From Burkholderia sp. BCC1644 (GTDB lineage: Bacteria; Pseudomonadota; Gammaproteobacteria; Burkholderiales; Burkholderiaceae): a stretch of DNA of 64,000 bases. Positions 19,079 through 32,322 of the stretch are shown here, one piece after another. Position numbers and translations under genes: made by a program. Every line of letters begins with the position of its first letter. Position 1 is the first letter of the stretch. The stretch spans positions 248,001-312,000 of the forward strand of contig NZ_CADFEI010000007.1 of assembly GCF_902833225.1 (NCBI RefSeq). Direction: 5' to 3'. Below the pieces are notes generated by a model, which was not told the DNA's origin, made no database searches, and was given only the letters and a program-made list of their open reading frames with translations.

Positions 19079-19202
19079 GCGCGGCGGCCCGGTTCGAAGA
19101 ACATCGCGACGGAGTGTGTCGTCGCGAAGCCGCTAACGTATCAGTGCGTGCGGCGAATCCGAACCAACAAATGGTGCTTTGCTCTGCGGGTTTCGTGATG
19201 AA
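19079..19202 (-). repeat. leader repeat, copy A (upstream of binding-protein gene)
   Basis: About 120 bp that align without large gaps to 20295-20413. Best-conserved blocks on the minus strand are GCAAAGCACCATTTG, TTCGGATTCGC and GATGTTC followed by GGGCCGCCGCG. Identity looks near 75 per cent by eye. Copy A is the 5' region of the amino-acid-binding-protein gene. Confidence 0.65.
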
Positions 19203-20099: not shown

Positions 20100-20130
20100 A
20101 AAAAAAGACGCCCGCTGCACGCAGCGGGCG
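20100..20130 (-). terminator. rho-independent terminator of small-ORF element, copy 1
   Basis: Minus-strand stem CGCCCGCT / AGCGGGCG with a six-base loop, then TCTTTTTTT. The same stem occurs in copy 2 at 30525-30555. Confidence 0.88.
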
Positions 20131-20160
20131 CGAATCCCAGTCAAGGAGGTGTTACACGAA

Positions 20161-20232
20161 CTACGCCGTCAGGGTGCGGAAATCTCGCGTGATGAACAAC
20201 GAATCGATTTCGATATCGATATGACGGGACAC
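20161..20232 (-). CDS. 23-codon small ORF (SRHIDIEIDSL type), copy 1
   Basis: A very short ORF starting at GTG and encoding MSRHIDIEIDSL then FITRDFRTLTA. It aligns without gaps to the 25-residue ORF at 30586, sharing SRHID, EIDSL and RDF. This in-frame conservation supports translation, but the length is small. Its stop leads directly into the conserved TTCGTGTAACACCTCCTTGA segment and a terminator. An ATG in another frame lies 4 bp upstream. The 3' region may act as an RNA in its own right. I do not recognise the peptide. Confidence 0.45.
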   Translation of the reverse strand: MSRHIDIEIDSLFITRDFRTLTA

Positions 20233-20294
20233 GCATTCGTGGAATCTTCCCGCGTCGAGCCGTGAACGCCGCAGCCCGACGCGAGGCCGGGGAG

Positions 20295-20413
20295 CGCGGC
20301 GGCCCGGCTCGACGAACATCGCGAAGCGTGCCGGTCGCGAAACCGCCAGTGCATCGGCGCGCGTCGCGAATCCGAACCGGCAAATGGTGCTTTGCGCCAC
20401 ACGCAGTGCGATG
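20295..20413 (-). repeat. leader repeat, copy B (upstream of small-ORF element)
   Basis: Counterpart of 19079-19202. Here the leader does not precede a transporter gene; going downstream on the minus strand it reaches the small ORF within about 65 bp. It may be the promoter and leader of that small transcript, or the remnant of a lost gene. Confidence 0.6.
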
Positions 20414-20460
20414 AAGGCCACTGCACGCATCTTCTCCGCATGCGCGCAGTGCCGGGGCCG

Positions 20461-21636
20461 TTACGGAAACGTGAACGTAAACTCCGCGGCGCCGCCCGCG
20501 TAGCCGGCCCTGAGTTCGCTGTCGGTGCCGGTCCGGATGTACTGCGCGCTCAACGGCATCACGGCGGTGTCGCCGACGCGCTTCATCGGATACTGCTTCG
20601 CGCTGTCCGGTTCATCGTAGCTGATCCGCTCGCCAGTCAGGCCGTTCGTCATCACGATGTTGAAGCCGCGGGCGGTCGCCTGCCCTTCGGGCGCGCTGAG
20701 CTGCAGCAGCGTCTTGTCCGCATTCGGCTGGACGGCCTTGTCGCGGAAGCTGATCGTCGGTTTCGCCGCCGCCGCGCACCGGCTGAGCGTGATGTTGAAA
20801 TCGACCGGCTGCGACGTTGCATGCAGGCTCGGGAACTGACCGAGCGACGCTCTGCCGAGATTGACCGGAACGATCATGTTCGACTCGACTTCGCATTGCT
20901 TCGGTATCGGAATGCCGCCACCGCCGCCGATCGTCAGGTTGCCGACGCCGGTATAGCTAATCGACTGCTTGCACATGTTCCATGGAAGCGGTGGGGTCAA
21001 GATCACTTCGTTGCCGAGCGACGCGGCGTTTTCCGGCAACGTATACGCGTACAACGTGATGCGCGGCGTCCCGAGCAGGTCGTTCACGACGATCTCGCCC
21101 TCCGGCAACGAGGTCGCCGCCTTGGTCAGCATGAGGTGCTGCTCGAAATAGACCATGATCGTATCGCCGGCGGACGTCCCGCCCCCCTCCACGCGATTGA
21201 TCGCCGACTTCGCGACCGCGGTCGGATAGACACTCTGCACCAGCTTGCGCGATTCGCCGTCGCTGTCGACACCCGACCAGCGCAACGCGATGCCGTCCAC
21301 GTTCGTCCGCGCGAGGCCGTCGGTAACGACCGTCCCCACCTCCCAGTGCCCGGCACTCACCAGCTCGTACGCGTAGGGCCCTTGAGGTCCGTACCTGTAC
21401 GCCACCATGAGCGACACCATGCGCTGATAGAGCACGGCGCCGACCGGTGTGCTGTTCGTCAGGCGCGTGACCTGCCTCCAGCTCGTCGCCTGGACGTTGC
21501 TGAACGTGCAATCGACGGCCGTCGTCCCCGCCGTTGCCGCATAGACATAGCATGCGCACGCCGCGCACACGGCGGCCCTGAACAAGCGCGCGGGCGTACG
21601 CCCCCATCGACATACGCGCCGCAGTATCGTTGTCAT
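20461..21636 (-). CDS. fimbrial tip adhesin / minor pilin of chaperone-usher system 2
   Basis: A 391-residue protein with an N-terminal export signal (hydrophobic stretch ending near YVYAATAG) and a two-domain build. The N-terminal region has many aromatic residues and few cysteines. The C-terminal region, from about NMIVPVNLGRASLGQF with SQPVDFNITLSRC, has the pilin-domain pattern and ends GGAAEFTFTFP, a donor-strand type C-terminus. It is the last gene of the six-gene operon. GGGAGA precedes the start. It would cap the fibre; the receptor is unknown. Note the glycine run (GNLTIGGGGGIPI), probably the linker between domains. Confidence 0.75.
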   Translation of the reverse strand: MTTILRRVCRWGRTPARLFRAAVCAACACYVYAATAGTTAVDCTFSNVQATSWRQVTRLTNSTPVGAVLYQRMVSLMVAYRYGPQGPYAYELVSAGHWEVGTVVTDGLARTNVDGIALRWSGVDSDGESRKLVQSVYPTAVAKSAINRVEGGGTSAGDTIMVYFEQHLMLTKAATSLPEGEIVVNDLLGTPRITLYAYTLPENAASLGNEVILTPPLPWNMCKQSISYTGVGNLTIGGGGGIPIPKQCEVESNMIVPVNLGRASLGQFPSLHATSQPVDFNITLSRCAAAAKPTISFRDKAVQPNADKTLLQLSAPEGQATARGFNIVMTNGLTGERISYDEPDSAKQYPMKRVGDTAVMPLSAQYIRTGTDSELRAGYAGGAAEFTFTFP

Positions 21637-21689
21637 GCTGTCTCCCGTTGAAGCGGCGACGGGCGTCGCATCGCCCGTCGCCGAATGCC

Positions 21690-24600
21690 TTACTGTTCGA
21701 TCACACCGAGGTTGACGCCCGCGATCTTTTGCTGCGCGGCGGCACCGACCGCATGGCTCCACCGGAACGTGCCGCGATTGACGCCGACGAGGCCGCCGTA
21801 AACCTGCTGCCACGACGAATAGGCGCTGTTGTTGACGCGACCGCTTGCCGCCGAGCTCTCGACCAGCCCCGCGTTCAGCCCGACCAGGCCGCCGAGCGTT
21901 GCCTGGCAGCCACCGCCGACCGTGCCCGACGCCGACGAGCCGAAGATCTCGCCGAGGTTGTCGCCGACGAGCCCGCCCACGACGCTCGACGTACTGCCCT
22001 GAACGTTGCCCGTCGCCGATGCGACGGCGAGCGTGCCCGACGTTGCGTTGGTACCGGCAAAGCCGCCCACCGACGCATACATGCCGGCGGATACGTCGCC
22101 GCTCGCATCGTTGTCGGCCAGTACGCTCTCGTTGTAGCCGGCGAAGCCGCCCGTCTTGCTGTAGTTGCCGCCGGTCGTCTTGCCACGCGCGACCGAATGC
22201 GCGATCGTCCCGTTGATGTGGCTGCCGACGAAGCCGCCGACGGTGCCCTGCCCGCCGGAGACCGTGCCGTGTGCCTGTGCATCGTCAATCAGCGCATCGC
22301 GGCCCTGGTTGATGCCGACAAAGCCGCCGGTTGCGCCGGACGACGCGCTGGTGACCGCGCCCAGCGCCTTGCTCTTGACCACGGAGCCCTGGTTCAGCCC
22401 GGCGAACCCGCCGATGGCTTGCGCGGACCTGCCGTCGACCACACCGCTTGCAGTCGAATCGGAAATCTTGCCGGTGTTGTAGCCGACAAAACCGCCCGCC
22501 GTACCGGCCGTGCCACCCGTCGTGCGTCCGGAGGCGCTGCCCTGCACGACCCCGTTGGCCAGGTTCGCGCCGACCAGGCCGCCGACGTTGACGCCCGACA
22601 AGCCATAGGCGGATGTCGAGCCGAGGCTCGTGCCGTTGCGAATCGCACCGTCGCGGTTCAGGCCGACGAGACCACCCAGCGATGCGATGTTCGACGCGCC
22701 TCCCGACACGGTGGCGTTCGCCGTGCCGTCGGATATCGTTGCCATCGCATGCCCGGCAATCGACGCCTGCTCGCCGACGAGGCCACCCGCGGCGTAAGTC
22801 ATGCCGTTGCCTTCCACCCTGCCGGTAAACGACGATTGCGCCACGCTGCCGCGGTTGATGCCGACGAGGCCGCCGAGCACGTTGCTGCGGCTCGCGCCGG
22901 CTCGCACCAGCGTGTTGTCCGACACGACGACGTTCGCGATCTCGCCGCGATTCTCGCCAGCCACCGCACCGATCGCGACCGGTCCCGGGCCTGTGGCCGC
23001 ACCGACGCTCGACGATTTCAGCACGAGGTTCGCGATGCGGCCCGTATTGAGGCCGAACAGGCCCGCATAGGGGCTGCCGCTCGTCATCGACAGCCTGCTG
23101 ACCGAATGACCGAGGCCGTCGAACGCACCGGAGAACGGCGTGTCGGCGCCGATCGTCTGGAACGTGGTGTTGTAATAGCCGCCGGCGATGTCGTTGCCGA
23201 GCACGTACAGGCCGCCCAGGTTCGCGTTGATCGCCTGCAACTGCGCGAGGGTCTGGATCACCGTATGGAGAAACCCGTTCGACTCGAACCCTGCGCCCGC
23301 ACCGGACAGCGTGACGGATGCGCTGTTGCCGAGCGAATACGCGCCAACGTAGTCGAGCTTGAAACGGGCGTTCGCGCCGGTCAGCGCGACCGGCGCGTTG
23401 ATCTGCGCGCCTTGTGCCGCGTCGATGGCCACCCCGGCGTTCGCACCCGTTGCACGTAGCGCGCCGTTCACCGCGACGTCGCCCTGCCGGCTCGTCAGCG
23501 TCAGCTGATTGCCGGTTGCCCAGTTCACCGGGCCGTCGACCGACAGCTTGCCCTGCTCGGCGACGAGTTCGATATCCGTCATCCCCAGGTTGCGCGACAG
23601 CGTATCGGCGACGATCGTCCCCTGCCGGCTCGCACCCGGCGTGACCGACAGGTCGGACGACGCAATGCGCCACACGCCGTTGCGTCCGTTGGTGGCACGG
23701 GTATCGACCGTCGCGCCGAGCGCAACCTTCACGTCCGCACCGCGCGTGTCGATCGTGCCGCCGTTGCCGGGGGTCGTCGCGCTGGCGTTCAGCGTACCGG
23801 CAACGTTGACCGTCCCTGCATCGTGACCGTCCAGCGAGATCCGCCCGGCGGAATTCCTGAGCGTGCGCGCCTCGATGGCGCCCTGGTTGTTCACCACCGT
23901 CTGCAACAGCGCATTGGCAGTGCGCGCGCTCATCAGCACCTGACCGCCATCGGCCTTGAGCAGACGTTCATTGCTGACCAGCGCGCCGACCGCACGCTCG
24001 TCGACCTGCAGGTTGAGCAGCTTGCTGCCGTCGAAGTTCAGCGTGACGGCGTCGCCCGCGGCGAGCGCGACGGTGCCCATCTGGGCCTGGACGACGCCAC
24101 GGTTCACGACCTGCGCGCCGAGCAACGCAATAGCGCCGCCTTCGGCCGCGACGAGGTTGCCGCGGTTCTGTACGTTGCCGATCGACGAGCCGGAGAATCG
24201 ATAATTCCCGGCGGCGAAATCGGCATTCTTGATGTCGAGCGTCGAGGCCACGAGGCCGCCGACGTTGACCTGCGCACCGTTGCCGAACAGGATCCCGTTC
24301 GGGTTGACGAGAAACACGCGGCCGTTCGCGTCGATGCTGCCGTGAATCGTACTGCCTTGCTGCCCCACGACCCGGTTCAGCGCGATCGACGACGCGGACG
24401 GCTGGTTGAACTTGACGCGCTGCCCCGCATCGACGTTGAACGACGACCATTCGGTCAGCAGCTTGTCGCTGTGCTGGTTGATCGACATCTGCCGGCCGTT
24501 GTCGTAACGCAGGATGTCGGCACTCCCGGACACGACGTTCTCGCCGACCGGCAACGCATGCGCGGCGCTCATCGCACCGCCGGCGACGCATGCGACGGCC

Positions 24601-24710
24601 AGCATCCTCCTGGTGCGCGTCGATGCCTTGCCTCGGCGACGCGCGCGTTCACCTGCAACCTGCCACACTCCCTGCCCGCTGTTCCACACCAGAGCGTAGG
24701 TTTTGTTCAT
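21690..24710 (-). CDS. haemagglutinin-type (TPS domain) protein with GLUG repeats
   Basis: A 1006-residue secreted protein. Residues 1-25 (MNKTYALVWNSGQGVWQVAG) match the extended signal peptide region of large autotransported and two-partner secreted proteins. A hydrophobic signal ends near SAAHA. Residues about 52-310 form a TPS/haemagglutination activity domain with the NPNGI motif at 136-140. From about residue 570 to the end are many GLUG-type repeats (GGLVGxNxGxV, GGFVGYNTG), predicted to form a right-handed beta-helix. It lacks an autotransporter barrel, so it needs a TpsB partner, and none is in the window. It sits between a chaperone gene and an adhesin gene inside a fimbrial operon, which is unusual. 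Confidence 0.88.
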   Translation of the reverse strand: MNKTYALVWNSGQGVWQVAGERARRRGKASTRTRRMLAVACVAGGAMSAAHALPVGENVVSGSADILRYDNGRQMSINQHSDKLLTEWSSFNVDAGQRVKFNQPSASSIALNRVVGQQGSTIHGSIDANGRVFLVNPNGILFGNGAQVNVGGLVASTLDIKNADFAAGNYRFSGSSIGNVQNRGNLVAAEGGAIALLGAQVVNRGVVQAQMGTVALAAGDAVTLNFDGSKLLNLQVDERAVGALVSNERLLKADGGQVLMSARTANALLQTVVNNQGAIEARTLRNSAGRISLDGHDAGTVNVAGTLNASATTPGNGGTIDTRGADVKVALGATVDTRATNGRNGVWRIASSDLSVTPGASRQGTIVADTLSRNLGMTDIELVAEQGKLSVDGPVNWATGNQLTLTSRQGDVAVNGALRATGANAGVAIDAAQGAQINAPVALTGANARFKLDYVGAYSLGNSASVTLSGAGAGFESNGFLHTVIQTLAQLQAINANLGGLYVLGNDIAGGYYNTTFQTIGADTPFSGAFDGLGHSVSRLSMTSGSPYAGLFGLNTGRIANLVLKSSSVGAATGPGPVAIGAVAGENRGEIANVVVSDNTLVRAGASRSNVLGGLVGINRGSVAQSSFTGRVEGNGMTYAAGGLVGEQASIAGHAMATISDGTANATVSGGASNIASLGGLVGLNRDGAIRNGTSLGSTSAYGLSGVNVGGLVGANLANGVVQGSASGRTTGGTAGTAGGFVGYNTGKISDSTASGVVDGRSAQAIGGFAGLNQGSVVKSKALGAVTSASSGATGGFVGINQGRDALIDDAQAHGTVSGGQGTVGGFVGSHINGTIAHSVARGKTTGGNYSKTGGFAGYNESVLADNDASGDVSAGMYASVGGFAGTNATSGTLAVASATGNVQGSTSSVVGGLVGDNLGEIFGSSASGTVGGGCQATLGGLVGLNAGLVESSAASGRVNNSAYSSWQQVYGGLVGVNRGTFRWSHAVGAAAQQKIAGVNLGVIEQ

Positions 24711-24793
24711 TGTCGATTTGCCTCGTAATGGTTGAATCCCTGCCGATATCCCCGGCAGGACGGGTATTGCATGGTTTGCCGGGGTACCGGCGA

Positions 24794-25597
24794 TCAATGC
24801 GCATCGAGCCGCCCCCGGTGCTCGCGCGACCGGCCGCCGTCATCGACCGCGTCAAAGAGGATGTCGTCCGCCGGTGGGCCTGACGGCGCATCGAGCGGAA
24901 TCTCGGTGCGACCGAACGGCTCGACGTCGACCGCGCCGCCGGCCAGCACGATGGGCCGCCCTTGCACGACGACGCGCGTCAGCGTCACGTAGTACGGCGT
25001 CGGGTTGACCGACACGAGGACGGGATGCGCCCGCGCATCCGACACCGTCCACCTCAGGCGATCCGGTGCGTCGCGCGGATCGCCGTCGATGCCGCGCGGC
25101 CGGTACAGCAGCTTCATGCGCAACCGGTACGCGATGCGCAGCATGTTGTCGGCCTGCCCGGCAGGCGGAACTTCGAGCAGGTTGATCCAGAAGCGGGATT
25201 CCCGATCCGTTGCCAACTCGTCGCCCATCGCGCGCACCTGTACCGCCAGCGCCTGCTGCGGGTCGAGCCGCGCAAGCGGCGGCGCGACGACGAAGGGCAC
25301 ACGAAGCCCGCCCGGATCGGCGTTCGCGTTGCCGTCGTCGAGCCAGATCTGAACGAGGATCGGCGTGCTGCCGAGATTGCGGGCGGCGATCGTCTGCGCG
25401 CGCGCACCGCCGGAATAAATGAAGCGCGTGCCGACGACCGACAGCGCTGCCGACGCGGGGACGGAAACGATGGCCGGCACGAACACGGCGGCCGCGAGCA
25501 ACGCCACCCGTATCACGTGGGGCAGAATGTGCGCGTTGCGCCGCATGGACGGCCTCCGGGCCGCGAGCGATACGAAACGGGAGAGAACGACGCGCAT
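24794..25597 (-). CDS. periplasmic fimbrial chaperone B, system 2
   Basis: A PapD-like chaperone of 267 residues from this start. The signal peptide is long; a shorter start at 25546 (MRRNAHILPH) is also possible. Family markers are GTRFIYSGGARAQTIAARN, TPILVQIWLDDG, VVAPPLARLDPQQ, TDRESRFWINLLEVPP and YRLRMKLLYRP with the conserved lysine. The C-terminus carries a few extra residues. GGGAGG upstream supports the longer start. The start lies only 4 bp from the usher stop. As the second chaperone of one operon it may serve the tip adhesin rather than the main pilin; this is inference. Confidence 0.88.
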   Translation of the reverse strand: MRVVLSRFVSLAARRPSMRRNAHILPHVIRVALLAAAVFVPAIVSVPASAALSVVGTRFIYSGGARAQTIAARNLGSTPILVQIWLDDGNANADPGGLRVPFVVAPPLARLDPQQALAVQVRAMGDELATDRESRFWINLLEVPPAGQADNMLRIAYRLRMKLLYRPRGIDGDPRDAPDRLRWTVSDARAHPVLVSVNPTPYYVTLTRVVVQGRPIVLAGGAVDVEPFGRTEIPLDAPSGPPADDILFDAVDDGGRSREHRGRLDAH

Positions 25598-25601
25598 CGA
25601 A

Positions 25602-28337
25602 CTACGGCCTCCCGGCCCGCGGTGGCAGTGACGCGGGCGCACGGCACACGCGCGTGAGCGTCACATAGCCCGTGCCCGCGCGTTGCTCCGCCGGCACCGA
25701 ATAGTCGATCGCGCACTGCTGATCCTGTCGCTGACCCCACTCGACCCGGATTCGGCCGTCATGCTCGCCGCTGCGCACGAACAGACGACTGCCCTGGCCG
25801 ACTGCCCCGAGCGGTGCGCCCGTCCGCGCATCGAGCGCGCGCGCGGCGAACGGCAACGGGCGGCCGTCCTCGGTTGTCGCGTCGATCAGCAGCGCGCGCG
25901 CCTTCACCGTATCGTATGAAAGCATCACGACCGCGCCGGCGCGGGGCGCGACGCTGCGCGAGACCGTCGTCATCTCGACGTCGTCCGCCACGTCCTTCGG
26001 ATCGATGTCGACCCGGTTGAGTTGATAAGGGACGAGACTCGGGACGATCGCATAGCCGAACCGGTTGACCCTGGCATCCGAATTGCCGACCGACGCGCCT
26101 TGCGCGTCCGGCGCGCGCACGACACCGACCGTCTCGCCCAGCGTCGGCCCGGGCGTCACGCCGCCCGGGTGCACGACCAGCCCGCCCGACGCACTGAGCG
26201 ACGCCTGCTGGTAGCCGCTGCCCATCCCGAAGTTACCCGCGAGCGACGCCGTCGGCATCCGGTAGCCGACACCGACACTGCCCGACGACGCGCGGTTGCT
26301 GCCGTCGTAGGTCGCCGACAGCGAGTACGAGCCGTCGCCCTGTTCGCCGAAACGCCCGGACACGCCTGCCATTGCACTCGTGCCCGCGCTGCTGTCGTGC
26401 GTGACGAGCGTGTTGAACGTCGGTGCGCGACGCGCGTTCCGGTCGAGCGGAATCGACACGCTCACACTCGCGAGCGTGTTGCCTTCCGGGCGCCCGAACG
26501 ACGACATGCCGGCCGACATGTTGCGCACCCGCTGGACCGACGCGCTCAGCGTCACGTCACGCCACTGCTTGCTGTAGCCGAGCGTGAAGCTGAGCGTCTG
26601 GCCGCGTCCCGCCCAATAACTGAGCGACGAGCCGTTCAGATAGACATTGCCGGCCTGCCCGATCTGCTGGCTGATGTTGAGATCGACGCGATTGCGCAAC
26701 CGGGGAAACGCGTCGGCCGACAGCCCCTGGGCCGTCCTGCCGGCCAGTTGCAGCGCATCGCTCAGGCCGAGATAGCCTTTCGTCGAATAGCGATACGCAA
26801 GCAGCGAGAAGTTCGTGCCGCTGTTCGGCAAATTCTTGCTGTACGACACGCGGATACTGGACCCGTTCATCCGCTCGGCGCCGGCCGGCTGCGTGCGCGC
26901 AACCGTGACGTCGGCCGCGATGCCGCCGATCGGTGTATTGAACGCGATGCCCATCAGCGCCGACTGGTAGCGCCCGGTGAACGCGCCGCCGCCGTATGCC
27001 GTCACCAGGTTGTTGATCCCCCGCTGCACGGTGAACTGGCCGACATACTGCGCGCCGCCGCCGGTACCTGAACCGAAATCGATCGCGCGGCCCGCCATCG
27101 CGCTGAATCGTGTGCTCCCCGGCCGCAGCAGCTGGACCGTCGTCGCGAACGGCACGATGAAGCTGTGCGCGTCGCCGTTCGCTTCGGTCACCGTCACGTT
27201 CAGGTCGCCGCCGTAACTCATCGCCTGCAGGTCGTCGATCTCGAACGGACCCGGTGCAACCGTCGTTTCATGCACGAGATAGCCGCGCTGGCGAATCGTC
27301 ACGCGCGCATTGGACTGGGCAACGCCGCGCACGACGGGCGCGTAGTAGCGCAGCGTATCGGGCAGCATCCGGTCGTCGCTCGAGATCTGGACGCCGCGAA
27401 ACGATACGGCGTCGAACAGGTCGCCGCTCGTCGAGCTTTCCCCGACGAGCAACTGGGCCCGCCATGCAGGCAGATCCGTCTGTGCGTAGACGTTGCCGCG
27501 CTGGTAGCGCACGACACCGCGCTGCGACCAGGTGAAATTGCCCGTATGGCGAATCCGGAACGGCCCGGCGCTCGCACCCATCGTCAGCCCCGTATAGAGC
27601 TGCGCGAACTCGTAGCCGCCGGCGCGCGTCGTAAACGCCATCGCGTTGTAGTTCACGAGGGCGGCCGGCACGCCGTTCGTCCAGGTCGACGGGTCGACGT
27701 AAGTGCTCCGGTTCGCGAGCCGCATGTAGAACTGCGGGACGACCAGATACAGCTTCTGTTCGTCCTGATCGAACGACAGCTCGGCCCCGGGAACATGGCG
27801 GGCGATCGGCTCGCAAAGCAACCCGTCGGGCATCGGTTCGGGCCGCGCATCGCGATCCTGGCCGCGCTCGCTGCGCGCCAGATCGACGCCCGCGCGCTGC
27901 AGCATCGCACGGTCGTAGCACGGCCGCACGCGGCCGTCGCCGGCGCGCCGGAACGCGATCTCTTCCACGCCGCGCCATTGCCCGTTGACGACGAAATCCA
28001 CGCGACGCTGCCCTTCCGTCAGCACGTTCGGACGCTCGTAGGGCGTCGTGTCGATCGGTGTGGCCCCGGCCCCGTGCATCAGCATCGATTCGTCGAAGCG
28101 GACCGTGTCGCCGGCCTGCGATGCCGGCTCCGCCGCAACCGGCGTGTCGTGGCCTGTGTCGTCGTGCGCCAGCGTTGCGGTTGCCGCGGCCGCGCGTTCC
28201 ACGAGCAGGCCCGCGCTCGCGACGGCGACCGCCACCGGCGTCAGTGCCGATGCGATCGCCCGCCGACGCGATCGCGATCGGCGGCGCGACGCCGGTACCG
28301 GAGCGTGCAAGGTAGGAATAACCGAAAAGCTCTGCAT
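25602..28337 (-). CDS. outer-membrane fimbrial usher, system 2
   Basis: A 911-residue FimD/PapC usher. After the signal peptide there is an N-terminal extension rich in His/Asp (ATLAHDDTGHDTPVAAEP), then the chaperone-binding domain with VDFVVNGQWRGVEEIAF. The barrel includes SSDDRMLPDTLRYYAPVVRGVA and the C-terminal plug-type domain contains LPFAARALDARTGAPLG. It is distinct from the usher of system 1 (much lower similarity by eye). It is followed directly by chaperone B and preceded by chaperone A. The N-terminal extension before the usher domain is longer than usual. Confidence 0.92.
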   Translation of the reverse strand: MQSFSVIPTLHAPVPASRRRSRSRRRAIASALTPVAVAVASAGLLVERAAAATATLAHDDTGHDTPVAAEPASQAGDTVRFDESMLMHGAGATPIDTTPYERPNVLTEGQRRVDFVVNGQWRGVEEIAFRRAGDGRVRPCYDRAMLQRAGVDLARSERGQDRDARPEPMPDGLLCEPIARHVPGAELSFDQDEQKLYLVVPQFYMRLANRSTYVDPSTWTNGVPAALVNYNAMAFTTRAGGYEFAQLYTGLTMGASAGPFRIRHTGNFTWSQRGVVRYQRGNVYAQTDLPAWRAQLLVGESSTSGDLFDAVSFRGVQISSDDRMLPDTLRYYAPVVRGVAQSNARVTIRQRGYLVHETTVAPGPFEIDDLQAMSYGGDLNVTVTEANGDAHSFIVPFATTVQLLRPGSTRFSAMAGRAIDFGSGTGGGAQYVGQFTVQRGINNLVTAYGGGAFTGRYQSALMGIAFNTPIGGIAADVTVARTQPAGAERMNGSSIRVSYSKNLPNSGTNFSLLAYRYSTKGYLGLSDALQLAGRTAQGLSADAFPRLRNRVDLNISQQIGQAGNVYLNGSSLSYWAGRGQTLSFTLGYSKQWRDVTLSASVQRVRNMSAGMSSFGRPEGNTLASVSVSIPLDRNARRAPTFNTLVTHDSSAGTSAMAGVSGRFGEQGDGSYSLSATYDGSNRASSGSVGVGYRMPTASLAGNFGMGSGYQQASLSASGGLVVHPGGVTPGPTLGETVGVVRAPDAQGASVGNSDARVNRFGYAIVPSLVPYQLNRVDIDPKDVADDVEMTTVSRSVAPRAGAVVMLSYDTVKARALLIDATTEDGRPLPFAARALDARTGAPLGAVGQGSRLFVRSGEHDGRIRVEWGQRQDQQCAIDYSVPAEQRAGTGYVTLTRVCRAPASLPPRAGRP

Positions 28338-28441
28338 GAGAAATTTCGTTTTTTCGCATGCCGAATCAACTGGTCGTCCATATCGACCCGTGAAACGGCA
28401 TGTTGAATCGTGCCTCGATACGGTGTGGCCTGACGCCCTGC

Positions 28442-29212
28442 TCAGTCCGCCAGTTTTTTCGTTATCGTGGTGCGACCGCCGTAGTCGTCGATGACCATGT
28501 ACCGCACGGTTGCCGGCTTCCGCGTCGATGCGGCAACACCCGGCAGTACAAACCGGGCGTGGTCGAACGGTGCGACCATTCCGCCGCCTGCCGATACGAA
28601 CGTGCCACCCGCATCGCTCTCCACCTTGCCGAACGAAACGTAATACGGCGTGGGGTTGGCAACCTCGAGTACGACCGTGCGGCCGCCCGCGCCCGGCGCT
28701 GCCGCGGCCGCTTTCCAGATGAGTTGATCGGGTGCGGCATCCACGCCGTCGGCAATCGCCGCCGGTCTGAAGAAGAGCTTGATGCGCGTCCGGAATCCGA
28801 AGCGCAGCTGGTTACCGGCATCCTTCGGGCCGGCCGGCACCTCGAGTACGTTCAGCCAGTAGATCGATTCGCGGTCGCCGGGCAGCGATGCCGGCGTGTG
28901 CGTGATGCGTAGCACGGCACTGCGGCCAGGCTCGACGCGCTTCAGGGACGGAGCGACGATGAACGGCACCTGCAATTGTTCGGGCGGCACGTCGACACGG
29001 CCATCGTCGACCCAGCTTTGCGCAAGCACCGGCTGCTCCGACGTGTTTTCGACGCGCACCGTCACGTCGCGCTCGCGTTCCGGGAAAACCACACGCGTGC
29101 CGTTCAATACAAGCGCCGCCTGCGCCGGCACGGCGCAGGCAGCCCATGCCACGACGCAACACGTCACCACATAATTAATAGTCCGAAATGACAAGATCAT
29201 GGCATGGAACAT
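28442..29212 (-). CDS. periplasmic fimbrial chaperone A, system 2
   Basis: A PapD-like chaperone of 256 residues from the ATG chosen. A TTG nine bases earlier and an ATG twelve bases later are alternatives, and no clear ribosome-binding site decides between them. Markers are GTRVVFPERERDVTVRVEN, AQSWVDDG, VAPSLKRVEPGRSAVLRI, GDRESIYWLNVLEVPAGP and RTRIKLFFRP. It follows the major pilin gene with no useful gap, so it probably handles that subunit. The intervening chaperone-usher gap is about 104 bp. Confidence 0.9.
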   Translation of the reverse strand: MFHAMILSFRTINYVVTCCVVAWAACAVPAQAALVLNGTRVVFPERERDVTVRVENTSEQPVLAQSWVDDGRVDVPPEQLQVPFIVAPSLKRVEPGRSAVLRITHTPASLPGDRESIYWLNVLEVPAGPKDAGNQLRFGFRTRIKLFFRPAAIADGVDAAPDQLIWKAAAAAPGAGGRTVVLEVANPTPYYVSFGKVESDAGGTFVSAGGGMVAPFDHARFVLPGVAASTRKPATVRYMVIDDYGGRTTITKKLAD

Positions 29213-29224
29213 GGACAGCAACGA

Positions 29225-29809
29225 TCAGTAGTAAGCGAGCGTGTAGCGGATGAACGAATTGCCCGAGCCGGTCTTGATGGCGGCCTGGTCGACCGTCGAC
29301 ACGTAGACGGCCGAATAGGTCAGCGTCGCCGTATTGTTCTTCACGGTTGCGACCTGCGCATCCGCCAGGTTTTGCGGCTTGCCGAGCCAGATCTTGCCGG
29401 CCTTGCCGTTGCCGGCGTCGCTGACCTGAATCTCCACGCCTACGGCCGGTTTCGTCCCGACGAGCTTCAGGTTGCCGGTGGCCGGATTGACGTTGACCGA
29501 TGCCGGGTCGAAATCGATCACGACCTTGGTATCGTCGGTACAACCCGCGTTGCCGCCGATATTCAGCGCAAACGGCACGGGTGTGGACGTCGAGCCGGCC
29601 GTGGCGAACGTGCTGGGGTTGATATGGTCGCCCAGCGACACTTCGCGGATATTGTCTACGCCAGGCGCCTGGCCGTTGATGTTGCACGTCACGTCCGAGA
29701 TGCTGCCCTCGAACTTGATCGTCCCGTCGTATGCATGGGCAACCGTCGGAGCCAGGACCGCGCTTGCGATACCGGCCGCAACCCAGCACTGAAGAAGTTT
29801 CATCTTCAT
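29225..29809 (-). CDS. major fimbrial subunit, system 2
   Basis: A 194-residue pilin. Signal peptide MKMKLLQCWVAAGIASAVLA is followed by YDGTIKFEGSISDVTCNINGQ. The pilin cysteine pair lies at DVTCNI and NAGCTDD. The C-terminus NSFIRYTLAYY fits the penultimate-aromatic donor-strand pattern. The start MKMKLL is preceded by AGGAAAGTGGAA. It is the first gene of the six-gene operon and the likely shaft subunit. It differs from the pilin of system 1 apart from family residues. Confidence 0.92.
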   Translation of the reverse strand: MKMKLLQCWVAAGIASAVLAPTVAHAYDGTIKFEGSISDVTCNINGQAPGVDNIREVSLGDHINPSTFATAGSTSTPVPFALNIGGNAGCTDDTKVVIDFDPASVNVNPATGNLKLVGTKPAVGVEIQVSDAGNGKAGKIWLGKPQNLADAQVATVKNNTATLTYSAVYVSTVDQAAIKTGSGNSFIRYTLAYY

Positions 29810-30523
29810 TTCCACTTTCCTATGAGATTGATTGGCTTGTGGCATACCGGCCGACATGCGCAATACCGCTTGCTTCAACGACATGACGCGAAATGACGGC
29901 CGCGCCGTCATTCCCGGAGAAACGGAATGCTCCGTTCCCCTTCGAATATTGACGACCACGCAATTCTATTTATCCGAGCCTGAAATTAATATCGTACAAG
30001 TAAGAAATTGACGGAACCGAAAGCATGCGTGAAGAACCGGATTCGGGCAGATTATTTTCGCATCCGCTATCGAAACGGCTCTCCAGTCAACGAGGCCATT
30101 CCGGCACGCCGGTGCCGCCGTCCCGGCAGGCCATTCAACGACCGGCTCAGGCATGGATAAATAATCGTGTCAATACGCTCAACGGCAGAGATTTTCGGGT
30201 CAGCAGAAAAGTCCTAATTCAATACACAAAGTCGGGATAAAACCCAATCCAGCTACCGTGATTCATGATTGAAATGGAAAGCGGCCCTGTCCGCGAGAAA
30301 AAGCAATGCGCCAGTGTCCGATGTTTTCGTTTTTTATTACTGCGGCACGTCGGGAGAACGCGCGGTGTCCATTACCGCAAATCCGAACGGCCTGGACCCG
30401 AAGGCAAGGAAATATCGTGATGCAGGCCGGCGCCTGCATGCGTCGGTCGGGCGGCCGCGCGCGAAGTCCGCGCGCTTCGGCAGACGTGAAGGGACCGATC
30501 GTGGCGCCGTGGCCGGCGGCACG
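29810..30523. promoter_or_regulatory. AT-rich leader region of fimbrial operon 2
   Basis: No convincing gene in about 700 bp. The section from roughly 29960 to 30300 is AT-rich (for example ATAAATAATCGTG) against high-GC surroundings, like the region upstream of fimbrial operon 1. The operon 2 promoter, on the minus strand, should lie here. The remainder leads into the small-ORF element copy 2. Confidence 0.5.
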
Positions 30524-30524
30524 C

Positions 30525-30555
30525 AAAAAAAGACGCCCGCTGTACGCAGCGGGCG
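30525..30555 (-). terminator. rho-independent terminator of agmatine operon and small-ORF element, copy 2
   Basis: Minus-strand stem CGCCCGCT / AGCGGGCG with loop GCGTAC, then TCTTTTTTT. It ends the long polyamine operon. Confidence 0.88.
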
Positions 30556-30585
30556 CGAATCCCAGTCAAGGAGGTGTCACACGAA

Positions 30586-30663
30586 CTACAGGCCCAGATT
30601 AAGGAAATCGCGTGCAACGGACAACGAATCGATTTCCATATCGATATGACGGGATACGCTCAT
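30586..30663 (-). CDS. 25-residue small protein overlapping deiminase stop, copy 2
   Basis: Encodes MSVSRHIDMEIDSL followed by SVARDFLNLGL. Its ATG overlaps the stop of the exported deiminase gene by ATGA, a classic translational-coupling arrangement. It aligns without gaps with the ORF at 20161. The stop is followed by a conserved segment holding CACCTCCTT, which resembles the 16S rRNA anti-Shine-Dalgarno tail, and then the operon terminator. The layout recalls small-protein genes whose 3' UTR yields regulatory RNAs (Cuckoo/CcsR type in other Proteobacteria). I do not know this peptide. Confidence 0.5.
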   Translation of the reverse strand: MSVSRHIDMEIDSLSVARDFLNLGL

Positions 30664-32171
30664 GCCGGTACTTCCCGCGTCGCACAGTGGATGCCGCCAC
30701 CGCCGGACGCGATGCCGAGGATGTCGACCTGCACGATCGCGCGGTTCGCCGCATATGGCCGGATCGCGGCAACCGCGGCCGCGTCGGCCGCCGCGTCGTT
30801 GAACTTCGGCATCACGATCGCGCCGTTGCACGTGTAGAAATTGATGTAGCCGGCCGCGAAATGCGACATCTGCCGCGCGCTCAGCGTCGTACCGGCCGAC
30901 GTGCCGTAGTTGACCGGCGGCACGAGTTCGACGATCTGCAGCGGCCGGCCGTTCGCGTCGGTCTGGCCGGCCAGGCGTTTCCGGTTCGCATCCGTCAATG
31001 CGCGCTCGCCGGTCGAATTCGACGCGTCGTAACAGCATGCGACCACGCCGGGCGCGAGAAAGCGCGCGTAGAAATCGACGTGACCGTTCGTGATGTCGCT
31101 CTCGTCAGCCGGCGACGCCGCGCCGCCGGCGCCACCCACGCCGCTGCCGCGCGGGTAGGTCGCCGTGCCCGGCAGCCAGATGATCTTCTGCACGCCGAGC
31201 GTGCGCTTCAGTTCGGCCAGCACGGTATCGCGGGCCGTCGGCAACAGCGTCGCGTTGGCGATCGCGCCGTTCGGGATGTCGAACAGCTGCGGATTGCGGT
31301 TCACGTGCAGCACGGCCGACTCGGTGAGGATCGCCGTCGCGTCGCCGTCGAATTCGATCGCACCGCCTTCGAGCGTCAACGTGCTGCGGATCAGGTTCGC
31401 GCCTCTGGTCTGCGCCATCCAGCCCGCCACCCTGCTGTCCTGGCTGAACGACTGGAAGAACTTGCCCGCTTTCGACCGGTTGCTCGCGGCCAGGATCGCC
31501 GGCGGAATCGTCCCCGCACTCTGGCCGGCGCCGTCGGTGTTCGCGTTGCCCCAGCCGTTGAAATTGAAGCCGATCGCGTTCAGCGCATTGCCGTTCGCCG
31601 TATCGCGGACGAACACGCAACCCGTGTCGCGCACCCAGAAATCGTTGAAGCCGCCGGCGAGCGGCACGAGGGTGATCCCGCCGGTACCCGCGGCGCGCGT
31701 CGCATAGCGCGCATGCAGGTCCGGATTCGCGACGCTCGCGGTCGCGAGCAGCGTGCGCGCCGCGTCCAGATCGACCGGCAGCACCAGCATGTTGACCGGC
31801 TCGGTTGCGCCGATCGCCTTCGCGACGTCCATCAGGTCGGCCCGCACGCGGTCGATGCCGGCATCCGTACTCTGTGACGTGACGGGCGCCCAGATGCCGT
31901 CCACGGCGGACGCGAAGGTCATGTAGGTCAATGCGTGCGGCGTATCTTCGGCCGGCATCCGGTACCCGGCCGGCCGTGCCGACGGCGTCGGGCGCGACGC
32001 GGACGCCGCGTCGGACGTGCCGCCGCCGTCGCCGCCGCCGCACGCGGCCAGGCTGCCCAACAGCGGCATGCCGAGCCACGCGGCCGAACAGCGGATGAAT
32101 CCGCGTCGGCCGGCATCCGGCATGGGCGGCGCGTGCGGGTTCGTGCTCGCGTTGTTGCCTTTCTTCGTCAT
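30660..32171 (-). CDS. exported agmatine deiminase / PAD-family paralogue, Tat lipoprotein
   Basis: A 503-residue member of the agmatine deiminase (Porphyromonas-type PAD) family. A twin-arginine signal RRGFIR (22-27) leads to the lipobox LAAC (C44), predicting a folded lipoprotein moved by Tat. Catalytic features are kept: WVRDTG, LEGGAIEFDG, NGHVDFYARF and the nucleophile C496 in GGGGIHC. It is about 140 residues longer than the cytosolic enzyme, with insertions near IPPAILAASNRSKAGKFFQ and PRGSGVGGAGGAASPADESD. It would deiminate agmatine or a related guanidine outside the cytoplasm. It is the last full-length gene of the polyamine operon. Confidence 0.85.
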   Translation of the reverse strand: MTKKGNNASTNPHAPPMPDAGRRGFIRCSAAWLGMPLLGSLAACGGGDGGGTSDAASASRPTPSARPAGYRMPAEDTPHALTYMTFASAVDGIWAPVTSQSTDAGIDRVRADLMDVAKAIGATEPVNMLVLPVDLDAARTLLATASVANPDLHARYATRAAGTGGITLVPLAGGFNDFWVRDTGCVFVRDTANGNALNAIGFNFNGWGNANTDGAGQSAGTIPPAILAASNRSKAGKFFQSFSQDSRVAGWMAQTRGANLIRSTLTLEGGAIEFDGDATAILTESAVLHVNRNPQLFDIPNGAIANATLLPTARDTVLAELKRTLGVQKIIWLPGTATYPRGSGVGGAGGAASPADESDITNGHVDFYARFLAPGVVACCYDASNSTGERALTDANRKRLAGQTDANGRPLQIVELVPPVNYGTSAGTTLSARQMSHFAAGYINFYTCNGAIVMPKFNDAAADAAAVAAIRPYAANRAIVQVDILGIASGGGGIHCATREVPA

Positions 32172-32322
32172 GTATTTCAACTCCGTTGCGCGGACGGCGC
32201 GCAGGCGTGCACGCCGGCTTCCGTCCCGTGGGACGGATTCCGCCTTGTTTTCAGTAGTCCGGAAAGACTGGAAAATGGAAGCAGCCTGCGGACCGGTCAC
32301 GCGGACCGGCCCGTCGCCGTGC

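Follow-up and report, generated by a model that had tools for sequence, protein, structure and literature searches.

The stretch of DNA considered here (the window) comprises 64,000 nucleotides (nt) of Burkholderia sp. BCC1644 (contig NZ_CADFEI010000007.1, positions 248,001 to 312,000) and carries on its minus strand a duplicated segment that is probably a small RNA (sRNA) gene. Copy 2 (30663-30524) and copy 1 (about 20234-20100) share 87% identity over 136 nt (E 9.9e-41). When the 140 nt of copy 2 are used as a query against the 8.25-Mb genome, the two copies are the only significant matches (253 and 163 bits; next E 0.154). Each contains a short open reading frame (ORF), which runs from ATG at 30663 to TAG at 30588-30586 in copy 2 and from GTG at 20232 to TAG at 20163-20161 in copy 1. 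Between the stop codon and the terminator loop, the two copies differ at a single position, with one further difference inside the loop, and both contain the anti-Shine-Dalgarno (anti-SD) segment CACCTCCTTGA. In copy 2, the ORF overlaps the stop of the preceding gene by ATGA.

The matching ORFs with their near-identical 3' segment and terminator, the shared anti-SD segment, and the ATGA overlap had all been described in an original prediction, and all are present in the letters of the minus strand. The model drawn from them, an sRNA derived from the 3' untranslated region (3' UTR) of a small-protein gene, together with a coupled peptide, holds in part. The comparisons support a regulatory RNA about 60-65 nt long that has an anti-SD segment and an intrinsic terminator, but they do not bear out the peptide, the 3'-UTR origin, or the assignment to the Cuckoo/CcsR type.

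The element and its promoter across the genus Burkholderia

Further copies in related genomes, which the original prediction had proposed as a check, do exist: the 140-nt query matches 63 of 65 Burkholderia genomes at E ≤0.001, so that the duplication in the window is not a product of chance. The query found no match in G067 and in G032, whose genome is 82% complete, and none of 24 genomes from other families of the order carries the element by the same query. A pattern scan of named genome contigs returned 35 stretches, every one in a Burkholderia record, and a pattern search of 398 genomes gave, among the matches listed outside the genus, only those with at least two mismatches. A more divergent likely relative, GTGACACTCCTCTGACAGGG, which has a similar promoter layout, occurs in 4 of the 58 genomes of another genus of the family (L260-L263).

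The 63 genomes yielded 66 elements, two each from this genome (G000), G088, and G073, and one from every other. They comprise 63 primary copies, including copy 2 of the window, and three secondary copies, including copy 1; G000 and G088 belong to the same species. The layout is the same in all 63 genomes: an upstream motif, a -35 box, a spacer, and a -10 box precede the 65 nt of the predicted RNA. The first 32 nt of this RNA are identical in 62 of the 63 primary copies, with G087 as the sole exception. Their mean conservation among the primary copies is 1.000 (rounded); the upstream motif reaches 0.84, the spacer 0.659, and the flank from -120 to -70 has a mean of 0.485. The higher conservation of the 3' segment relative to the codons of the ORF, as originally claimed, therefore holds for the entire genus. 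TAG is found 13 nt ahead of ACCTCC in all 66 elements, and the 40 distinct RNAs all contain CACCUCCUU, save for one letter change in two of them. These are the same letters as those of the 16S rRNA tail; the letters that flank them are equally invariant.

The promoter elements are conserved as well (Table 1). In the two primary copies without the -35 TTG at its fixed place, the triplet lies one nt further. Changes are mostly limited to the secondary copies, all three of which are altered in both the 32 nt (1, 1, and 2 changes) and the -10 box; the corresponding figures for the primary copies are 1 of 63 and 0 of 63.

Table 1. Features of the two copies and of their surroundings, in coordinates of the window
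Feature	Position	Strand	Remark
Copy 2, predicted 65-nt sRNA (primary, intact)	30525..30589	-	5' end G30589 from promoter spacing; last letters are seven U
Copy 2, intrinsic terminator	30533..30556	-	Stem-loop of 10 pairs, then U run
Copy 2, -10 hexamer	30596..30601	-	Pattern TAnnCT, in 63/63 primary copies
Copy 2, -35 hexamer	30619..30624	-	17-bp spacer; TTG at fixed place in 61/63 primary copies
Copy 2, conserved 22-nt upstream motif	30622..30643	-	Overlaps -35; possible activator site
Copy 2, ORF of the original prediction	30586..30663	-	On top of promoter; judged not coding
Copy 1, sRNA segment (secondary)	20100..20164	-	1 change within the conserved 32 nt
Copy 1, degraded -10	20171..20176	-	Departs from TAnnCT, as do the secondary copies of G088 and G073
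Copy 1, upstream motif	20197..20218	-	Pattern still matched
PAD_porph-type (agmatine deiminase) gene in front of copy 2	30660..32300	-	ATGA overlap with ORF
Probable decayed agmatine-deiminase 3' end in front of copy 1	20235..20460	-	From alignment; controls separate only partly
Chaperone-usher fimbrial cluster between the copies	20461..29959	-	FimA-like, chaperone, usher, second chaperone, TPS-domain protein, fimbrial-domain protein
Conserved 29-nt element before amino-acid ABC binding-protein gene	19172..19200	-	Far side of cassette slot

The predicted sRNA, its likely relatives, and its proposed mode of action

The element is quite likely a stand-alone sRNA gene of Burkholderia with its own promoter, whose 65-nt product would pair with ribosome-binding sites; copy 2 would be the working gene and copy 1 a decaying one. 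Transcription would depend on a weak sigma-70-type promoter, probably aided by an activator at the conserved site abutting the -35 box, and would run from about 30589 (the G of GUAGUUCG) to 30525, where a strong hairpin followed by seven U should end it. The predicted fold comprises a free, single-stranded 5' part, a 4-bp mini-hairpin around CACCUCCUU, and the terminator, which alone is stable. Such an RNA would most likely pair with the ribosome-binding sites of several mRNAs (AAGGAGGUG-like) and block their translation, a mode of action that has been proposed for the double-hairpin (RF02278) sRNAs and demonstrated for one target of S17, their relative in Bordetella.

Several results weigh against this reading. 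A simple consensus scan calls no promoter at either copy, and the transcription start is derived from promoter spacing; a promoter that is weak by consensus would agree with the need for an activator, without proving one. The fold of the 65 nt is little more stable than those of shuffled sequences (14 of 200 are as stable), and there is no covariation in the invariant 5' part. No strong mRNA target emerged: outside the two genes themselves, no site reaches 16 complementary letters out of 19, and the number of AGGAGGTGT-ATG sites (3 vs. 1 in the reversed control) is not taken as proof. The best match below threshold in Rfam, RF02278, reaches 24.5 bits for copy 1 and 29.1 bits for copy 2 (cut-off 50), and weak matches to this family (E up to 10), none over the cut-off, are also present in 13 of 14 control genomes. 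The secondary copies do not form an independent set, because those of G000 and G088 come from one species. Lastly, a frame of at least 20 codons exists in 42 of the 63 primary copies if ATG, GTG, or TTG is accepted as the start, and in 15 of 63 if it has to be ATG.

At the gathering score, Rfam has no match in the window or in the loci of eight relatives. Among the RF02278 matches in this genome, copy 2 ranks seventh, behind four members that exceed the cut-off and two weaker matches. A covariance model (R1) built from 20 of the 40 distinct RNAs, secondary copies excluded, retrieves RF02278 members as its third and fourth matches in this genome, and of its nine best matches outside the genus, eight belong to RF02278 with scores over the cut-off. 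Together with these nine, 11 lower matches picked by hand (one of them in G067 of the genus) were fetched; 13 of the 20 places are RF02278 members over the cut-off, and one more scores 49.4 bits. Taken alone, the 5' part is no more than suggestive (its summed score is attained by 45 of 2000 shuffles); the window sRNA is therefore classed as RF02278-like and not as a member; it is probably a compact, divergent relative of the family. In another genus, a 36.8-bit match to R1 (L216, G326:C61:9487-9548) is not recognized as RF02278 at E 0.01 and may be a distant relative.

Like the double-hairpin RNAs ncS03, ncS05, ncS27, and ncS62 (bdhR1) of RF02278, the window sRNA would be a short stand-alone RNA with a 5' CCUCC able to bind ribosome-binding sites and with GGAUU ahead of a GCCCG terminator, and the R1 and RF02278 models find each other's members. 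Unlike in these RNAs, with their two stable hairpins, of which the first has a C/U-rich loop, hairpin 1 is cut to 4 predicted base pairs, and the insert is 9-10 nt shorter. S17 of Bordetella pertussis, an RNA that binds ribosome-binding sites, is also similar in its conserved 5' end, its terminator, and its resemblance to RF02278, but arises from a 190-nt RNA through cleavage by RNase E (PMC11722255), whereas the window sRNA appears to have its own adjacent promoter. Another Burkholderia sRNA with CCUCC and a terminator, anti-hemB (RF02837, ncS04), gives a 19.3-bit match to copy 1, which is far under the cut-off of 49.5 bits and breaks the pairs of the model.

By analogy, the window sRNA may act in the same manner as its double-hairpin and S17 relatives. 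According to PMC5688073, the double-hairpin sRNAs of B. cenocepacia contain sequences reverse-complementary to ribosome-binding sites, and overexpression of ncS27 slows growth, whereas its silencing does the opposite. PMC11722255 reports that 92 genes rise in Bordetella without S17, 70 of them with a complementary sequence in the ribosome-binding site or its vicinity, and that S17S represses BP2158 directly. Duplex energies of the sRNA with the neighbouring genes are uninformative. One of the three AGGAGGTGT sites, with 9 letters complementary to the sRNA, precedes the start of a PstS-like gene (L265, G000:C3:142840-142854; by eye), a possible target.

The same gene could instead act broadly, its product mimicking the 16S tail, competing for many strong ribosome-binding sites, and damping translation or growth in general. 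The position of CACCUCCUU inside the invariant stretch, the lack of long complementarity to any mRNA, and the slower growth on overexpression of RF02278 relatives (PMC5688073) would agree with such a role. It is a serious rival but nevertheless rather unlikely, as all 32 nt are invariant, beyond the anti-SD letters, which suggests specific contacts. Moreover, mini-hairpin 1 half hides UCCU, and the exponential growth of E. coli was left unimpaired by S17S of Bordetella (PMC11722255). Pairing of the 65-nt RNA with the ribosome-binding sites of several mRNAs is the preferred reading.

The 22-nt upstream motif is also found ahead of a second RF02278-like sRNA (L055, G000:C8:286622-286690), at the same 20-nt distance to the -10 box. 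Like the window sRNA, it has a CUCC-rich 5' end and a terminator, and its score to RF02278 (42.5 bits) is likewise below the Rfam cut-off. Unlike the window sRNA, it has a longer hairpin 1, and the match between the 5' part of the window sRNA and the second sRNA is no better than with shuffles (922 of 2000 reach the score). The motif pattern CGATANNNRAAATGCTTGGTTG, which was drawn up after the second sRNA had been seen, is matched with at most two mismatches in all 65 genomes; among the matches listed, there is none for the reversed pattern. Thirty loci with a match were fetched, of which 24 have the second sRNA, four the sRNA of the window, and two neither. The regions upstream of the four RF02278 members over the cut-off in this genome contain no clear copy of the motif (by eye). 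Weaker copies of the motif precede two genes whose products resemble GntR-type regulators (by eye): L181 (G000:C5:212975-212996), a variant with two mismatches, and L186 (G000:C6:316953-316974).

The open reading frame and the gene upstream

A small-protein gene, as which the ORF had originally been read, was rejected. A start codon at the place of that in the window is present in 20 of the 63 primary copies, comprising 15 of the 19 genomes with an agmatine-deiminase gene in front and 5 of the 44 without. The entropies of codon positions 1, 2, and 3 (0.635, 0.819, and 0.626; 63 primary copies) reveal no excess at the third position, which is not the most variable. The ORF looks like a promoter, and its stop TAG like letters 2-4 of the RNA. 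Caution is warranted because a promoter followed by an RNA that begins with GUAG can mimic a conserved small ORF.

The gene in front of the element differs between genomes. It encodes agmatine deiminase in 19 of 63, and the nearest upstream gene is of the MFS type in 38 of the 62 genomes other than that of the window, by a match made on a 120-residue piece and just under Pfam's cut-off; in many genomes, it lies behind a DUF444 gene. Cleavage of the sRNA from the 3' UTR of an mRNA that encodes a small protein, with translation coupled to the preceding gene, would be compatible with the ATGA overlap and open frame in the window and with the frames of at least 20 codons in 42 of 63 copies. Moreover, a scripted search finds no terminator before the promoter in the agmatine-deiminase genomes, save for a match inside the 1.4-kb gap used for G010. 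In the window, 16 nt separate the agmatine-deiminase stop from the upstream motif, with no terminator between them, so that read-through is possible in these genomes, the window included. This origin is nonetheless very unlikely, because the upstream gene varies, the promoter elements are conserved, and in 26 of the 64 copies examined the same search places a terminator after the upstream gene and before the promoter. The scarcity of the start codon where agmatine deiminase is missing and the absence of a third-position excess also speak against it.

Cuckoo/CcsR RNAs carry the CCUCCUCCC motif in hairpin loops and are located behind a DUF1127 small-protein gene. The window sRNA resembles them in being a small RNA with an anti-SD-like C/U motif. 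Nevertheless, the assignment to this type was given up, because CCUCCUCCC is present in 0 of 56 distinct 70-nt RNA segments and DUF1127 was not detected in any of the 12 proteins or pieces scanned (eight window proteins, then two window proteins and two 120-residue pieces of relatives' neighbours).

Neighbouring genes, the cassette slot, and the origin of the two copies

In the fimbrial cluster that separates the two copies, the FimA match scores 28.7 bits against a cut-off of 30. The region 21690-24797 encodes a protein with a TPS secretion domain, an extended signal peptide, and GLUG repeats, and the same order is seen in several relatives. A fimbrial cluster follows the element, within the fetched stretch, in 14 of 63 genomes. 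The 29-nt element of the transporter lies within 12 kb of 45 of the 63 primary copies, at a distance from the anti-SD letters of 72-300 nt in 21, 0.9-1.0 kb in 10, about 2.1 kb in eight, and 10-11.4 kb in six. Since cassettes are interposed in 24 of these 45 copies, the slot behind the sRNA terminator appears to be a repeated landing place for gene cassettes.

The location on the same strand and the short distance in 21 of 45 primary copies might indicate a cis-acting leader or attenuator of the downstream transporter gene, or of whichever gene follows. Such a role is highly improbable: the RNA is unchanged in the 24 copies in which a cassette of about 0.9-11.4 kb separates it from the transporter, and the transporter has its own conserved upstream element. 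The few folds made also show a similar terminator strength throughout and no alternative structures.

The right flank of copy 1 aligns with those of the single-copy genomes G027, G036, G029, and G016 (scores of 254, 250, 246, and 230), whereas that of copy 2 has a match only in G088 (252) and a weaker one in G073 (111; next 38). A different native flank adjoins the secondary copy of G073 (score of 188 to G035). Because the right flank of copy 1 is native, the fimbrial cluster and the duplicated sRNA gene appear to lie between two halves of an older locus. The segment in front of copy 1 is probably the decayed 3' end of an agmatine-deiminase gene. Its alignment scores 73, compared with a maximum of 50 among 200 mononucleotide shuffles. 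In a weak test of 226 nt, the scores of G000, G088, and G073 are reached by 3, 6, and 49 of 400 random segments, of which the three highest (304-402) are probably real agmatine-deiminase pieces. Over 82 nt, the three genomes score 65, 79, and 50; the 44 loci that lack the gene have a median of 26 and reach at most 80, and 15 primary copies preceded by it score 136-156. Copy 2 is best read as the intact, working gene, and copy 1 as a redundant copy in decay beside the inserted fimbrial cluster. That the element is a mere conserved terminator, duplicated by recombination and devoid of an RNA function, is scarcely credible, for although the two copies flank a rearranged cluster, stem and loop of the terminator vary across the genus, whereas the 32 nt before them do not.

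While sRNAs of the anti-SD type are already known, the literature searched (supplementary tables were outside the search) yielded no record of the window RNA, its promoter motif, or its link to the second sRNA, and no paper was found for four strings of the RNA. The accessible Tables 3 and 4 of PMC4603805 and Table 1 of PMC5688073 list no sRNA identifiable as that of the window, which was compared without its J2315 coordinates; an earlier transcriptome record is possible.

A wider scenario is conceivable but doubtful. The two sRNAs, the first being a genus-invariant mimic of the 16S tail, may be co-regulated by one activator acting at CGATANNNRAAATGCTTGGTTG and jointly brake growth at strong ribosome-binding sites; the slot behind the first terminator would then be a cassette-exchange site of the genus, and copy 1 a fossil from the entry of the fimbrial cassette. 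The regulator of this sRNA group is called unknown in PMC5688073, and the motif common to the two sRNA promoters provides a handle on it. In three genomes, a live and a decaying copy occur together, and their comparison reveals the letters that are retained. A 32-nt stretch that does not vary in 62 of 63 genomes and has the letters of the 16S tail at its centre points to strong constraint on this RNA, which is absent from Rfam.

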